From assembly GCA_020860605.1 (NCBI GenBank), contig JAJBTZ010000090.1, positions 124,001-188,000 on the forward strand: 64,000 nucleotides of DNA, given 5' to 3'. Numbering within the stretch: the first letter of the stretch is position 1; every line of letters begins with the position of its first letter. Positions 5,569 to 26,442 of this stretch are shown piece after piece. The notes under the pieces were generated by a model. That model saw only the letters and a list, made by a program, of their open reading frames with translations. It had not been told where the DNA came from and made no database searches. Made by a program: the position numbers and the translations under genes. The DNA comes from Ruminococcus sp. (GTDB taxonomy: Bacteria > Bacillota > Clostridia > Oscillospirales > Ruminococcaceae).

Positions 5569-5634
5569 GAGCTTTATGCCGACAATATCTGCTAATATCC
5601 GAGAAGATTTTCTGAAAAATATTTGGAAAATCTC

Positions 5635-5681
5635 TTGACAAGATGGCATGTATATGTTATCATAAATCAAGAATCATTCTT
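5635..5681 (+). promoter_or_regulatory. Promoter and Fur/PerR-type operator of the regulator gene
   Basis: TTGACA (5635-5640), a 17-bp spacer and TATCAT (5658-5663) are followed at once by a perfect inverted repeat, AAGAAT-C-ATTCTT (5669-5681), at the likely start of transcription. The AAT-N-ATT core matches the centre of Fur/PerR boxes, so autoregulation by the downstream gene is likely. Confidence 0.65.
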
Positions 5682-5697
5682 AATTTTGGTGATGAGC

Positions 5698-6084
5698 ATG
5701 ACAAAACAGCGAAAACTGATAAAGGAGATTATATATAACTCCGATCGCCACCTCACCGCCGAGGAAATCTTTACCGAGGCGAGGAAGAGTATGCCCAGTA
5801 TCGCCCTTGGGACGGTATATCGCAACTTAGGCAAGCTCTGTGAGGACAAGGAGATAAGGCTTATAAGCCTTCGGGGATTTTCCGATTGCTATGATAAATC
5901 TTTCAAGCCACATGGGCATCTTATCTGCAATTCCTGCGGGAAGGTTGACGACTTCCCTATCGAGGATATCGGCGAGGAGCTTTCAGAAAGGCTTGGAGTT
6001 AATCTCATCTATTACGATGTCAACGCTCACTACATCTGTGATGAATGCAAGCTAAAGAATTCGGTTACTGGCGACAGCCTTTAG
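5698..6084 (+). CDS. Fur-family regulator, PerR-like
   Basis: A 128-residue metal-dependent repressor. The start at 5698 (MTKQRKLIKEI) is preceded by GGTGAT; ATG 5692 is also possible, and an in-frame extension to 5623 would run through the promoter. The winged helix covers residues ~1-80. The Zn site is CNSCGK and CDEC. The metal-sensing region reads CYDKSFKPHGH: an Asp in the place used by PerR rather than Fur, plus HxH. The adjacent rubrerythrin gene fits a peroxide-sensing role. It could still be a Fur with iron control; the PerR call is inferred from one residue and the neighbour. Confidence 0.85.
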   Translation: MTKQRKLIKEIIYNSDRHLTAEEIFTEARKSMPSIALGTVYRNLGKLCEDKEIRLISLRGFSDCYDKSFKPHGHLICNSCGKVDDFPIEDIGEELSERLGVNLIYYDVNAHYICDECKLKNSVTGDSL

Positions 6085-6135
6085 AGCTGCCGTGTAATAT
6101 AAAACTAAAATCTAATTTTCAAAGGAGAACTCGAA

Positions 6136-6669
6136 ATGGAACTTAAAGGAACAAAGACTGAACAGAATCTTATGACAGCATTTGCCGGTGAATCTCAGGC
6201 AAGAAATAAGTATACATACTTCGCTTCTGTTGCAAAGAAGGAAGGCTACGAGCAGATCGCTGAGATCTTCTTAAAGACCGCTGAGAATGAGAAGGAACAT
6301 GCAAAGCTCTGGTTCAAGGCTCTCGACGGAATCGGCTCTACTCCTGAGAACCTCAAGGCTGCGGCTGAGGGCGAGAACTACGAGTGGACTGACATGTATG
6401 CTACCTTTGCAAAGGAAGCTGAGGAAGAGGGCTTCAAGGTTTTGGCTGCTCAGTTCAGAATGGTTGGCGAAATCGAGAAGGCTCACGAGGAGAGATATCT
6501 CAAGCTTCTTGACAACGTTGAGATGCAGAAGGTCTTCGAGAAGAGCGAAGAGACCATGTGGGAGTGCCGTAACTGCGGTCACCTCGTAATTGGCAAGAAG
6601 GCTCCGGCTGTCTGCCCTGTTTGCGCTCATCCCGGAAGCTTCTTCGAAGTAAGAAAAGAAAACTACTAA
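6136..6669 (+). CDS. rbr: Rubrerythrin
   Basis: A 177-residue non-haem iron peroxidase of anaerobes that reduces hydrogen peroxide in the cytoplasm. The N-terminal four-helix ferritin-like domain carries the di-iron ligands ([33 protein letters not shown] and EKAHEERY). The C-terminal rubredoxin-like Fe(SCys)4 site is CRNCGH and CPVCAH. It starts 51 nt after the PerR-like gene with a strong AAAGGAG, and the two are probably co-transcribed from the operator-bearing promoter at 5635. A terminator follows at 6686. Length and motifs are typical of the family. Confidence 0.97.
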
Positions 6670-22559: not shown

Positions 22560-24440
22560 TCATAATTTTTTCACAAACAAAGCTCTTATCGCGTTTAATA
22601 CAGCAAGCACCATCACTCCAACATCTGCGAATATTGCAAGCCACATGCTTGCCATTCCGAGTGCTCCTAAAATCAGACAGATAAGCTTGACACCAATCGC
22701 GAAGACGATGTTTTCCTTGACGATCCTAAGGCACTTTTTAGAAATTCTGATTGCCTTTGAAATCTTTAGCGGGTCGTCGTCCATGAGGACAACGTCTGCT
22801 GCCTCGATTGCAGCGTCTGAGCCCATTGCTCCCATCGCAATTCCTATATCTGCTCTTGAGAGAACAGGTGCATCGTTGATTCCGTCACCGACGAAGGCAA
22901 GCTTTCCGCTTTGCTTCTTCTCAAGAAGCTCCTCAACCTTTGAAACCTTGTCGTCGGGCATCAGCTCTCCGTGAACCTCGTCAATTCCCAGTTCATTGCC
23001 TACACTTTCAGCGACAGATTTTGAGTCGCCACTGAGCATTATTGTTTTCTCGATTCCAGAACGTTTGAGAGACCTGATGGCTTCCTTGGAGTTTGGCTTT
23101 ATAACATCTGAGATAACAATGTGACCGCAATAGTTGCCGTCAACAGCAACATGTATTATGGTTCCGACTGAGTGGCAGGAGATGTACTCGCTCCCTACCC
23201 TCTTCATCAGCTTACTGTTACCGACCGCTACGCTATGACCATCAACTGTGGCTGTGACGCCTTCACCGCTGATTTCCGAAATATCCGAAACTCTGCTTCT
23301 GTCAAGCTCTTTGCCATAAGCGTGTTGGAGGCTCTTGCTTATAGGATGGGAGGACGCGCTTTCAGCAAGCGCTGCAAGCTCAATAAGCTTCTGATTGTCG
23401 ATGGTACCGTGATGGATGGCATTGACTTCGAAGGAGCCTTCGGTGAGGGTTCCAGTCTTGTCGAAGACGACATACTTTGTCTCTGAAAGAGTTTCAAGGT
23501 AGTTCGAACCCTTGATGAGGATTCCTTCCTTGCTTGCTCCACCAATTCCTGCAAAGAAGCTGAGAGGAATACTGACAACCAGGGCACATGGACAGCTGAT
23601 AACCAGGAATGTGAGTGCTCGGTAGATCCAGTCGCTGAATGCAGCGGGCAATCCCATGAGAAGTCTTACTACTGGCGGAATTATCGCCAGAGCGAGAGCC
23701 GAAAAGCAGACAACGGGAGTATAGATCCTCGCAAACTTCGAGATGAAGTCTTCAGACTTCGATTTACGGGAGCTTGCATTTTCTACAAGATCAAGAATCT
23801 TCGAGACGGTTGATTCTCCAAAGGCCTTAGTTGTCCTGACTTTCAGAACGCCTGTCATGTTGATGCAACCGCTGATTACTTCGTCACCAGTGTGGACGTC
23901 TCTCGGAAGACTTTCGCCAGTTAAGGCGGAAGTATTTAGCGTGGAAATTCCATCCTCAATAACTCCGTCAATTGGGATCTTTTCTCCTGGCTGGACAAGA
24001 ATTATGCTTCCTATCTCAACTTCGTCAGGCGAAACCTGAGTTAGCTTGCCGTCAACCTCGATATTGGCGTAGTCTGGCCTTATGTCCATCAGGTCGCTGA
24101 TGCTGCGACGGCTTTTCCCGACAGCGTAGCTCTGGAATAGCTCGCCTATCTGGTAGAAGAGCATTACCGCGATCGCTTCGCTATATTCCCCACTTTGCTC
24201 GTAGATAGCAAGCGCGAAGGCTCCGACAGTCGCAATTGCCATCAGAAAATTCTCGTCGAAAACTCTGCCATTCAGAATTCCTCTGAAGGCCTTGAGCAAT
24301 ATATCATAACCGATGATTATGTACGCTACAAAATAGAGAAAAAGTTGCAAGATGCCCGAAACGGGCAGTATCATCAGAAGAATCATCATCAGCACAGTGA
24401 TGAGAATTCTTGCAAGCATTTTCTTCTGCTTTTTAGTCAT
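22560..24440 (-). CDS. Heavy-metal translocating P1B-type ATPase (Zn/Cd class likely)
   Basis: A 626-residue metal pump. It has the membrane CPC motif (SCPCALVVSIP), the actuator TGES (ALTGESLP), the phosphorylation site DKTGTLTEG, the HP motif SSHPISK and the hinge GDGINDAP. The last helix contains ADVGVMVLAVLNAIRAL, with the D-x-G pattern typical of Zn/Cd/Pb pumps rather than copper pumps. There is no N-terminal metal-binding domain; the neighbouring 72-residue HMA protein probably supplies it. Expressed from a promoter with operator-like repeats and facing an ArsR gene. Confidence 0.94.
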   Translation of the reverse strand: MTKKQKKMLARILITVLMMILLMILPVSGILQLFLYFVAYIIIGYDILLKAFRGILNGRVFDENFLMAIATVGAFALAIYEQSGEYSEAIAVMLFYQIGELFQSYAVGKSRRSISDLMDIRPDYANIEVDGKLTQVSPDEVEIGSIILVQPGEKIPIDGVIEDGISTLNTSALTGESLPRDVHTGDEVISGCINMTGVLKVRTTKAFGESTVSKILDLVENASSRKSKSEDFISKFARIYTPVVCFSALALAIIPPVVRLLMGLPAAFSDWIYRALTFLVISCPCALVVSIPLSFFAGIGGASKEGILIKGSNYLETLSETKYVVFDKTGTLTEGSFEVNAIHHGTIDNQKLIELAALAESASSHPISKSLQHAYGKELDRSRVSDISEISGEGVTATVDGHSVAVGNSKLMKRVGSEYISCHSVGTIIHVAVDGNYCGHIVISDVIKPNSKEAIRSLKRSGIEKTIMLSGDSKSVAESVGNELGIDEVHGELMPDDKVSKVEELLEKKQSGKLAFVGDGINDAPVLSRADIGIAMGAMGSDAAIEAADVVLMDDDPLKISKAIRISKKCLRIVKENIVFAIGVKLICLILGALGMASMWLAIFADVGVMVLAVLNAIRALFVKKL

Positions 24441-24468
24441 ATTAATCTCTCCCCTTGCCGATTTAAGT

Positions 24469-24687
24469 TCAAATTTCTATTTCACAATCAGGCTCGACCT
24501 TTCTGCAGGCCTTGAGAACACTTTTCATCACCTTTGCCTGGTCGACACCCTCTTCAAACTCGACAATCATCTTCTGAGTCATGAAGTTCACAACAGCGTT
24601 CATAACGCCAGCAGTCTTCTTTGCAGCACCCTCCATGAGATTTGCACAGTTGGCACAGTCGACTTCGATATTATAGGTCTTCTTCAT
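24469..24687 (-). CDS. Stand-alone HMA metal-binding protein
   Basis: A 72-residue ferredoxin-like metal-binding domain with the CxxC site as VDCANCANLMEG near residue 10. It is 28 nt upstream of the P-type ATPase in the same operon. In most pumps this domain is the N-terminal part of the ATPase; here it is a separate chain, so it could act as a metallochaperone or a trans-acting regulatory domain. Other cysteines near the C-terminus (KACRK, PDCEI) may also bind metal. Confidence 0.9.
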   Translation of the reverse strand: MKKTYNIEVDCANCANLMEGAAKKTAGVMNAVVNFMTQKMIVEFEEGVDQAKVMKSVLKACRKVEPDCEIEI

Positions 24688-24729
24688 TTTGAATCACCTT
24701 TCCTGAGTAAGAGTTGGATTAGCAGTATT

Positions 24730-24792
24730 AAACGATTAAGCAGTCGTTTAAACGTCCTATTACATTATATGCTGCTCCTACGTATTTGTCAA
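24730..24792 (-). promoter_or_regulatory. Metal-efflux operon promoter with operator-like repeats
   Basis: Minus strand: TTGACA (24787-24792), 17 bp, TATAAT (24764-24769). Downstream of the -10 are the palindrome CGTTTAAACG (24745-24754) and AAACGA...TCGTTT (24730-24735/24744-24749), placed where a repressor such as the divergent ArsR protein would block transcription. Confidence 0.65.
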
Positions 24793-24852
24793 TAGGAAAA
24801 TGAAAAATTTTCGAAATTCGACAATTGTAGCAAAAATGCTCACGGATAAGCC

Positions 24853-24881
24853 TTGTCTAACTGGCGATATTGTGTTATAAT
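24853..24881 (+). promoter_or_regulatory. ArsR-family gene promoter
   Basis: TTGTCT (24853-24858), 17 bp, TATAAT (24876-24881). Confidence 0.6.
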
Positions 24882-24914
24882 ATAGTAAACAATATTTCCA
24901 AAGGAGACAAAAGA

Positions 24915-25280
24915 ATGCCCGAAGAATTGCTCCCCCATCATCACACCGATGAATATGATATAGAATCTTTGAAGAAAACCCTCGAGAAGACCGATTTTCA
25001 GGCTGTTGCTGACGTTTTTCGCCAGCTTGGCGATTGTAGCCGAGTCCAGATTTTCTGGCTCCTCTGCCACTGTGAAGAGTGTGTAATCAACATTTCCGCC
25101 CTGATGGGCATGACCAGCCCGGCGGTCTCCCATCACTTAAAGCTCCTCAAAGCCAGCGGCCTCATCACCAGCCGTCGCGAAGGCAAAGAGGTCTACTACA
25201 AAGCAGCCGACACCATCCAAAGCCAGTCGCTGCATCTCATAATTGAGAAGATTATGGAGATTACGTGCCCGGAGGAATAA
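24915..25280 (+). CDS. ArsR/SmtB-family metal-responsive repressor
   Basis: A 121-residue winged-helix repressor. The start is ATG 24915 with AAGGAG; an in-frame extension upstream would run through the promoter. Cysteines in helix 3 (LLCHCEECVINI) occupy the place of the CxC metal site of CadC/ArsR-type sensors, and an N-terminal LPHHHTDEYD adds histidines. The recognition helix is TSPAVSHHLKLLKASG. It is divergent from the HMA/P-type ATPase operon, so it very likely derepresses that operon when a thiophilic metal such as Cd, Pb or Zn binds. The metal is inferred. Confidence 0.9.
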   Translation: MPEELLPHHHTDEYDIESLKKTLEKTDFQAVADVFRQLGDCSRVQIFWLLCHCEECVINISALMGMTSPAVSHHLKLLKASGLITSRREGKEVYYKAADTIQSQSLHLIIEKIMEITCPEE

Positions 25281-25343: not shown

Positions 25344-25766
25344 TTACACCAAAGCCTTGCCGAGGGATTGGCAGGCTGATATCGCTTCGTTGTCGGGGGC
25401 ATCGTTGCAGATGACGCTGTCAGTGGCGAAGATAGCGCCGTCGTTACGGCAGGTTTCCTCCCAGGAACGCATCCATTCTCCATCACCCCAGCCATATGAG
25501 CCGAAGAGGGCGATCTTTTTGCCATTAAGAGCTGGTTCGCAGGCTTGGAACATTGGCTCGAATTCGCTTTCTTCGAGCTGCTCGTCTCCCATAGCGGAGC
25601 AGCCGAATGCTATGGCGTCATATGTTGATACTGTGGAGGTGTCGAACTCTGAGGCTGTGAAAAGCTCCGCCTCCCCTCCTGCTTTTCTGGCACCCTCCAG
25701 AACGGCGTTGGCCATCTGCTCGGTGTTGCCGGTACCGCTCCAATATACTACTGCTATTTTTGACAT
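25344..25766 (-). CDS. Flavodoxin
   Basis: A 140-residue FMN electron carrier. The phosphate-binding loop is VVYWSGTGNTEQMA near residue 10, and the isoalloxazine loops include FGCSAMGDEQLEE and SYGWGDGEW. In many bacteria flavodoxin replaces ferredoxin when iron is scarce. It starts 15 nt after the DUF3793 gene. The operon promoter carries two palindromes that look like sites for a metal-dependent regulator, which fits iron control, although the regulator is not in the window. Confidence 0.95.
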   Translation of the reverse strand: MSKIAVVYWSGTGNTEQMANAVLEGARKAGGEAELFTASEFDTSTVSTYDAIAFGCSAMGDEQLEESEFEPMFQACEPALNGKKIALFGSYGWGDGEWMRSWEETCRNDGAIFATDSVICNDAPDNEAISACQSLGKALV

Positions 25767-25781
25767 TACAATCTTCCTTTC

Positions 25782-26333
25782 TCAGGTGGCTACGAGGAGC
25801 CTTTCTAATGAATGATATTTGCTATAGTGTTTGCAATAGCTGCCGATGCACTGTCTGTACTGACGAAACTTCTCCTCGGCAGCTTTTTCGTCACCGTAAA
25901 CCTTCCAGAAACCTACACACTTGGCGCTTTCGGCTTTGTTATCGATAAAGCCCTTCACATCTTCAGGAGGATATCCTAAGAACAGCCCGATTTCGTGAGG
26001 AAATTCTGAGGATTCCGAGAGCCTGTCCCGAAGCCTCCAGAGACACCTGTTTATGTTGTTAGTAGGATACCCGCGTTCGTCGAGAATACTCTTCCCAAGA
26101 CTGTCAGAGAGGTCGGATTTCAGCATGTTTGGCCTGTAGAGATAGATAAGAGCGGTGCCATGCTGGCGCCTGAGGACTATCATGCACATGCCTTTCGGAA
26201 CCATGATTTTATTGAAGGCGCAGACGCTTTCGTGAAGCGAGTGCTCGTCTTCATAATGATAGTTGAACATGGCAGCGGTCTTTATTCCTGCCATGGTTGG
26301 TGCACAATGTCGCACCAGAAGTTCTTCGGACAT
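25782..26333 (-). CDS. DUF3793 family protein
   Basis: A 183-residue protein of a family with no established role. Visible features are HCAPTMAGIKTAAMF at the N-terminus, a Tyr/Leu-rich core (LIYLYRPNML), HEIGLFLGYPPEDVKGF and a Cys/Tyr-rich end (RQCIGSYCKHYSKYH). No signal peptide or membrane segment is apparent. It is the first gene of an operon with flavodoxin behind the GTTAG-N6-CTAAC sites, so a part in electron transfer or iron economy is a reasonable inference. Confidence 0.85.
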   Translation of the reverse strand: MSEELLVRHCAPTMAGIKTAAMFNYHYEDEHSLHESVCAFNKIMVPKGMCMIVLRRQHGTALIYLYRPNMLKSDLSDSLGKSILDERGYPTNNINRCLWRLRDRLSESSEFPHEIGLFLGYPPEDVKGFIDNKAESAKCVGFWKVYGDEKAAEEKFRQYRQCIGSYCKHYSKYHSLERLLVAT

Positions 26334-26356
26334 TAAATCACCTCTGTGAAACTGGG

Positions 26357-26442
26357 GTTAGCTTAAGCTAACTGACTTCTTTAAATAATAGTTAGACTCG
26401 GCTAACTGAGAATAGTATACACTATGTGAGAGCGGTTGTCAA
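26357..26442 (-). promoter_or_regulatory. DUF3793-flavodoxin promoter with two palindromic operators
   Basis: Minus strand: TTGACA (26437-26442), 17 bp, TATACT (26414-26419). Two palindromes follow: AGTTAG-N6-CTAACT (26390-26407), at the transcription start, and GTTAGCTTAAGCTAAC (26357-26372), perfect over 16 bp. Both contain GTTAG-N6-CTAAC and lie 34 bp apart. The half-sites resemble those bound by DtxR/IdeR-type iron regulators. Confidence 0.7.

Follow-up and report, generated by a model that had tools for sequence, protein, structure and literature searches.

The primary metal site of DtxR consists of Met, Cys, Glu and His (DtxR numbering). Bacillus subtilis MntR is a short, two-domain member of the same family, and the MntR operator differs from a TTAG-N6-CTAA box. 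The Fur box has the consensus TGATAATNATTATCA. The IdeR/DtxR iron box of Actinobacteria (TTAGGTTAGSCTAACCTAA) has TTAG/CTAA half-sites and is located in the promoters of iron genes. According to the available part of its description, such a half site is occupied by a single IdeR dimer, with residue Gln43 of IdeR contacting the first base in the repeat (PMC8464063). In Clostridioides difficile, the flavodoxin fldX rises in low iron and has a Fur box upstream; the available part of that report does not mention DUF3793 (PMC6311696).

Here we describe a window of 64,000 nucleotides from a Ruminococcus sp. genome. As with C. difficile fldX, a flavodoxin gene has a predicted iron-regulator site upstream, but the regulator appears to belong to the DtxR family, whereas it is Fur in C. 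difficile (available part of PMC6311696). Our literature search found DUF3793 named in a single paper, on a fungus, and nothing on such a box or regulator in Clostridia; RegPrecise, which may list the motif, was outside this search.

Promoter of the DUF3793-flavodoxin operon

The operon and its predicted control elements in the window are as follows.

25344-25766, minus strand: short-chain flavodoxin gene, 140 aa, second in the operon (TIGR01753, above cut-off)
25782-26333, minus strand: DUF3793 gene, 183 aa, first in the operon (PF12672, E 3.8e-55); start codon at 26333
26338-26345, minus strand: probable ribosome-binding site, AGAGGTGA
26357-26372: downstream box GTTAGCTTAAGCTAAC, a perfect 16-bp palindrome, GTTAGC-N4-GCTAAC; predicted one-dimer DtxR-type operator
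26391-26406: upstream box GTTAGACTCGGCTAAC; predicted operator covering the probable start of transcription
26414-26419, minus strand: -10 hexamer TATACT, ending 7 bp before the upstream box (consensus match only)
26437-26442, minus strand: -35 hexamer TTGACA, 17-bp spacer (consensus match only)

Both boxes match GTTAG-N6-CTAAC exactly, start 34 bp apart and lie between the -10 hexamer and the DUF3793 start codon. The original prediction had described two palindromes in this arrangement. Their positions, half-sites and spacing hold, but only the copy at 26357-26372 is perfect; the upstream box has intact half-sites around a non-palindromic centre. Because it starts 7 bp past the -10 hexamer, the upstream box should cover the transcription start.

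The half-sites had been likened to those of DtxR and IdeR. The TTAG/CTAA letters and the spacing of a one-dimer half agree with this, but the spacing of the whole classical 19-bp box does not: in neither window box is there a further TTAG/CTAA pair shifted by 5 bp. In the available part of its description, repeats 1 and 3 of the IdeR/DtxR consensus read TTAG-N6-CTAA, spaced as in the window boxes (PMC8464063). Thus, the N6 spacing corresponds to one of two interlocked DtxR units standing alone, and not to a departure from DtxR recognition. We class the window boxes as predicted operators of the DtxR/IdeR type in a half-box variant only. Compared with the IdeR/DtxR box, the window-type box has a single unit, hence no interlocked second dimer, and a C next to TTAG (G at repeat position 1). 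The systems also differ in that the boxes here are often doubled 33-35 bp apart, occur in Bacillota and accompany a regulator without an SH3 domain.

The window contains two exact sites, against 0.035 per 64 kb in its dinucleotide shuffles (P ~6e-4). When up to two mismatches were allowed there was no excess in the window (12 found, 19 expected), so information comes from the exact form alone. In the 2.28-Mb genome there are nine exact sites compared with 1.25 expected (P ~7e-6, from the shuffles of the window). All nine carry the TTAG-N6-CTAA one-dimer unit and none is intragenic. Chance matches would account for the lack of an excess at two mismatches, but they would not account for the genomic count, nor for a box at nearly all DUF3793 loci in other genomes (see below), and we regard the probability of this explanation as negligible.

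On the 3' side of the flavodoxin operon (window 22560-25280) lie genes for a heavy-metal P-type ATPase and an HMA-domain protein and an ArsR-family gene on the opposite strand. The ATPase gene is found downstream of the operon in close relatives also.

Sites elsewhere in the genome

The original prediction, that the operon may be iron-responsive, would have failed had the motif been missing from other iron genes. The outcome was the opposite and supports that prediction: boxes flank both feoA-feoA-feoB and the sole DtxR-family gene. The sites outside the window, listed by contig, and the regulator gene are as follows.

C23:24491 and 24591: exact pair between feoA-feoA-feoB and the divergent DtxR-family gene
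C23:24730-25116: sole DtxR-family regulator, 128 aa, divergent from feoA-feoA-feoB
C22: exact pair before a 39-aa frame
C27: one exact box before an ABC transporter
C80:139: one exact box before a ZIP transporter
C80:8653/8633: one exact box and a one-mismatch copy before a methyltransferase operon

An additional ATTAGCATAGGCTAAT stands ahead of feoB itself. The box is located in iron-gene promoters, namely those of feo, dtxR and flavodoxin. At five of the seven targets (the window operon, feoA, the 39-aa frame and the ABC and ZIP transporters) the box starts 4-11 bp past the -10 hexamer, where a classical repressor would bind, and the promoters of these five are near-consensus (10-12 of 12). 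The methyltransferase operon has a weaker promoter, identified by visual inspection. For dtxR, the box on its side of the feo intergenic region precedes the likely promoter.

These positions also bear on the idea that the palindromes work at the RNA level, forming hairpins in the leader, and are not protein sites. In favour of it, the probable 5' leader contains both window boxes, one of them a perfect inverted repeat. However, the box on the dtxR side of the feo region is outside any leader. Furthermore, the letters of TTAG/CTAA themselves are conserved, whereas the four bases at the centre vary freely and often do not pair, and base 6 covaries with a protein helix, as described below. An RNA role is thus extremely improbable.

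Thirteen stretches, a subset of all weaker genomic sites, were chosen and inspected, and many of these sites fall within reading frames. Possible targets among them are L011, where the site follows a TATAAT and lies 35 bp before a short-chain-dehydrogenase-like frame, and L010, where it lies at the start of a glutamate-synthase-like gene (both names were read from the sequence).

The operon behind the C80 boxes (L008:4289-8622), which we predict to be iron-regulated, encodes methyltransferases, membrane proteins, an alpha/beta hydrolase, DUF6796 and ATC_hydrolase (PF14196). The 39-aa frame of C22 (L005:9725-9844) has a hydrophobic start, with two boxes and a strong promoter in front, and gave no match in Pfam or NCBIfam. 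The ABC transporter behind the C27 box (L007:7828-9544) is split into two overlapping frames, reflecting a frameshift or an assembly error.

The DtxR-family regulator

The C23 regulator is the only PF02742 protein in the genome, and both PF01325 and PF02742 are above cut-off. Like B. subtilis MntR, its best sequence match, it is a short two-domain protein; it ends after the dimerisation domain and lacks the C-terminal SH3-like domain of the DtxR/IdeR branch. Its residues include Met9, His78, Cys100, Glu103 and His104, and Met9, Cys100, Glu103 and His104 form the primary metal site of the iron (DtxR/IdeR) branch. Two of these positions, which decide between iron and manganese, distinguish it from MntR: Met9 and Cys100 are DtxR-type residues where MntR has Asp and Glu. 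The targets also differ, being iron genes here.

A regulator that senses manganese, as MntR does, would make the targets a manganese regulon or a mixed Mn/Fe regulon. The nearest solved relatives of the regulator are MntR structures (E 1.5e-15), and the NCBIfam MntR models outscore the DtxR model; both results count against the iron reading. All of these models are below cut-off, the MntR models reaching 79.4 bits against 153 and 74.3 against 138. Among the MntR structures, the top score belongs to the 1on2 chain, which has Met for Asp at position 8. The first ligand position in 36 feo-adjacent regulators is Asn in 13, Asp in 12 and Met in 11. Asp or Asn in 25 of the 36 would suit manganese, and we rejected Met at this position as a general marker of iron. 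One target is a ZIP transporter, from a family with broad metal specificity. Nevertheless, feoAB and flavodoxin are among the targets, the genome has no Nramp transporter, and Fur boxes stand on the same operon in other families. Given the DtxR-like ligand set, the lack of Nramp and the Fur replacement, we consider manganese sensing unlikely, although one ligand position varies among relatives (Met, Asn or Asp).

A second possible iron sensor, which might itself read the boxes, is a Fur-family protein (window 5623-6084); no further member of that family was found in the genome. Its gene adjoins a rubrerythrin-like gene (window 5623-6669), and because of this neighbour we infer that it is probably PerR. 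The motif is not a Fur box: the best matches to the Fur consensus at six promoters of this genome reach 8-10 of 14 bases, with 9 of 14 before the window operon. Moreover, the boxes flank the DtxR-family gene. Thus, it is very unlikely that the Fur-family protein is the reader.

The association of box and DtxR-family gene extends to other genomes. Of 119 distinct regulators, 36 adjoin feo, and a box lies in the locus of 34 of them, compared with 6 of the 83 that are not next to feo, although some of these loci had been picked by motif. Among feo-adjacent regulators drawn by protein similarity, regardless of motif, 24 of 26 have a box (hand count; two share locus L135).

Conservation and replacement by Fur boxes

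A protein-only search of named genomes supplied 34 DUF3793 loci, 10 of which are from close relatives of the window (86-93% identity). A box of the pattern [AG]TTAG-N6-CTAA[CT] occurs within 1 kb upstream at 33 of the 34, compared with 0.12 expected, and the one boxless locus has just 591 bp of upstream sequence. The set includes Oscillospiraceae, Lachnospiraceae, Anaerotignum, a Solobacterium and an Eggerthellaceae bin. In relatives, the boxes recur at the feo, DUF3793-flavodoxin, ZIP and ABC-transporter promoters, and in Lachnospira the gene order is DUF3793-fld-feoA-feoA-feoB.

The strict form, GTTAGC-N4-GCTAAC, is present in 86 of the 148 genomes of the window's family; its absence from the other 62 counts against our reading. 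A reversed control pattern, whose dinucleotide make-up differs, occurs in seven. The strict box is commoner in genomes with the regulator (82 of 130) than in those without (4 of 18; P 0.0016).

A phylum-wide draw of 299 genomes gave DUF3793 in 52, and the gene could be placed in 54 of 55 loci (L283 gave none with the profile). The original prediction had raised the co-occurrence of DUF3793 and flavodoxin as a point to check: they are found together at 25 of the 34 loci from named genomes and at 24 of the 54 loci of the phylum sample. The TTAG-N6-CTAA box is present at 10 phylum loci, all 10 with flavodoxin. The remaining 14 flavodoxin-linked loci have no such box, and 13 of them were compared with the Fur consensus (L246, with less than 80 bp upstream, was left out). 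At least 11 of 14 bases match at 11 of the 13 loci, and at least 13 match at seven; none of 139 scrambled palindromes reaches either count. Only 2 of the 10 loci with a DtxR-type box reach 11 bases. One of the two boxless loci that fall short, L252, has GTTAGTTAAATCTAAA, which is nearly a DtxR-type box. A single family (f36) contributes seven of the 11 Fur-type loci, so few independent events are represented.

These results suggest that Fur boxes replace the DtxR-type box on DUF3793-flavodoxin operons and that iron control survived a change of regulator. The site of another iron regulator before the same gene pair in other families ties DUF3793 to iron shortage. Of 30 DUF3793 loci without a nearby flavodoxin gene, nine reach 11 Fur-box bases and 21 have neither site; thus, some DUF3793 genes have no recognisable iron box in front of them.

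Covariation of regulator and box

We ranked 108 variable regulator columns by how well each accounts for the frequency of C at base 6 of the box. The set comprised 31 feo-adjacent loci with an unconstrained base 6; it left out L052-L080 (where the search pattern fixed base 6), the second regulator in L135, the site-less feo-adjacent loci L118 and L161, and identical regulators. The analysis was repeated with 32 loci, including identical regulators, thinned to 28 and 27.

With the 31 loci, the top five columns were positions 45, 42, 46, 70 and 44, and positions 42-46 lie in the recognition helix. After thinning to below 85% and below 75% identity, 45, 42 and 46 still held ranks one to three. 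Non-helix positions 70, 32, 72 and 3 also reached the top six in the repeat, which counts against our reading. Base 6 is C in 29 of 34 half-sites when residue 45 is Gly and in 35 of 42 when it is Ser, compared with 2 of 12 for Ala and 12 of 74 for Lys. Position 42 aligns with IdeR Gln43 through a shared S-x-P-x-x-S motif. As the top three columns are in the recognition helix, these results link the regulator to the motif. The columns share one tree and the loci are related by descent; thus, the ranking is partly controlled for descent, but P values are not.

A model for iron control of the operon

Iron-dependent repression by the DtxR-family protein through one-dimer boxes is the best reading of these sequences, and we hold it to be highly probable. 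Its iron component draws on the targets, the ligand residues and the Fur replacement. We propose that each TTAG-N6-CTAA box takes one repressor dimer, as one half of the 19-bp IdeR/DtxR box would. When Fe2+ is plentiful, the loaded repressor would sit over the transcription start and ~34 bp downstream of it, and the DUF3793-flavodoxin promoter would be blocked. The feo genes, the ZIP and ABC transporters and the methyltransferase operon would be repressed together with it. When iron is short, the operon would be released, flavodoxin would replace ferredoxin, and DUF3793 would be made along with it. If so, a likely iron-control operator has been defined for a large group of anaerobic Bacillota.

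The paired arrangement has a preferred spacing. Among the 75 pairs listed, up to 47 bp apart (more pairs exist), 43 are at 33-35 bp (7.3 expected if even), 16 at 25-27 bp and four at 43 bp. The 33-35-bp spacing is common to feo, ABC and DUF3793 operons, and 34 bp does not correspond to an integer number of helical turns. The preferred spacings among these listed pairs step by 8-9 bp, which does not fit the 10.5-bp helical repeat. The middle of the 34-bp pairs is AT-rich, but these are mostly close relatives, and a third conserved element between paired boxes was dropped as a candidate.

DUF3793 and associated proteins

We suggest that DUF3793 acts beside flavodoxin under iron shortage. A more far-reaching joint proposal is that DUF3793 serves Bacillota specifically under low iron, working with flavodoxin, that its iron control passed through a regulator swap (Fur box versus DtxR-type half box), and that helix residues 42 and 45 of clostridial DtxR-like proteins set the base beside TTAG. 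In this proposal, Arg at 42 with Gly or Ser at 45 would specify C, Val, Ile or Thr with Lys mostly T, and Tyr with Lys mostly A. We consider the joint proposal, the code included, evenly balanced between being right and being wrong. DUF3793 would thereby be placed in a definite setting, that of low iron alongside flavodoxin, in lineages of both the Fur and the DtxR type, and the recognition code can be tested at two residues.

The conserved motifs of DUF3793 are FPHE(I/V)G, YP and WKVY, and Cys10 and Cys162 are near-invariant. An AlphaFold2 model has a pLDDT of 88.5 and a pTM of 0.85. A Foldseek search of the model against the PDB gave no confident match (best E 0.055). On a second look the best structure was 2guk, a functionally uncharacterised protein (Z 6.5, rmsd 3.7, 106 residues). 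This is below a meaningful level on its own, and function was not assigned by fold.

DUF2325 (PF10087) has only a sub-cut-off match in the Ruminococcus sp. genome. Elsewhere, it is the first gene behind the box in L032, L038, L061 and L229, and it precedes DUF3793 in L032, L038 and L229. It is possibly part of the same low-iron set as DUF3793.
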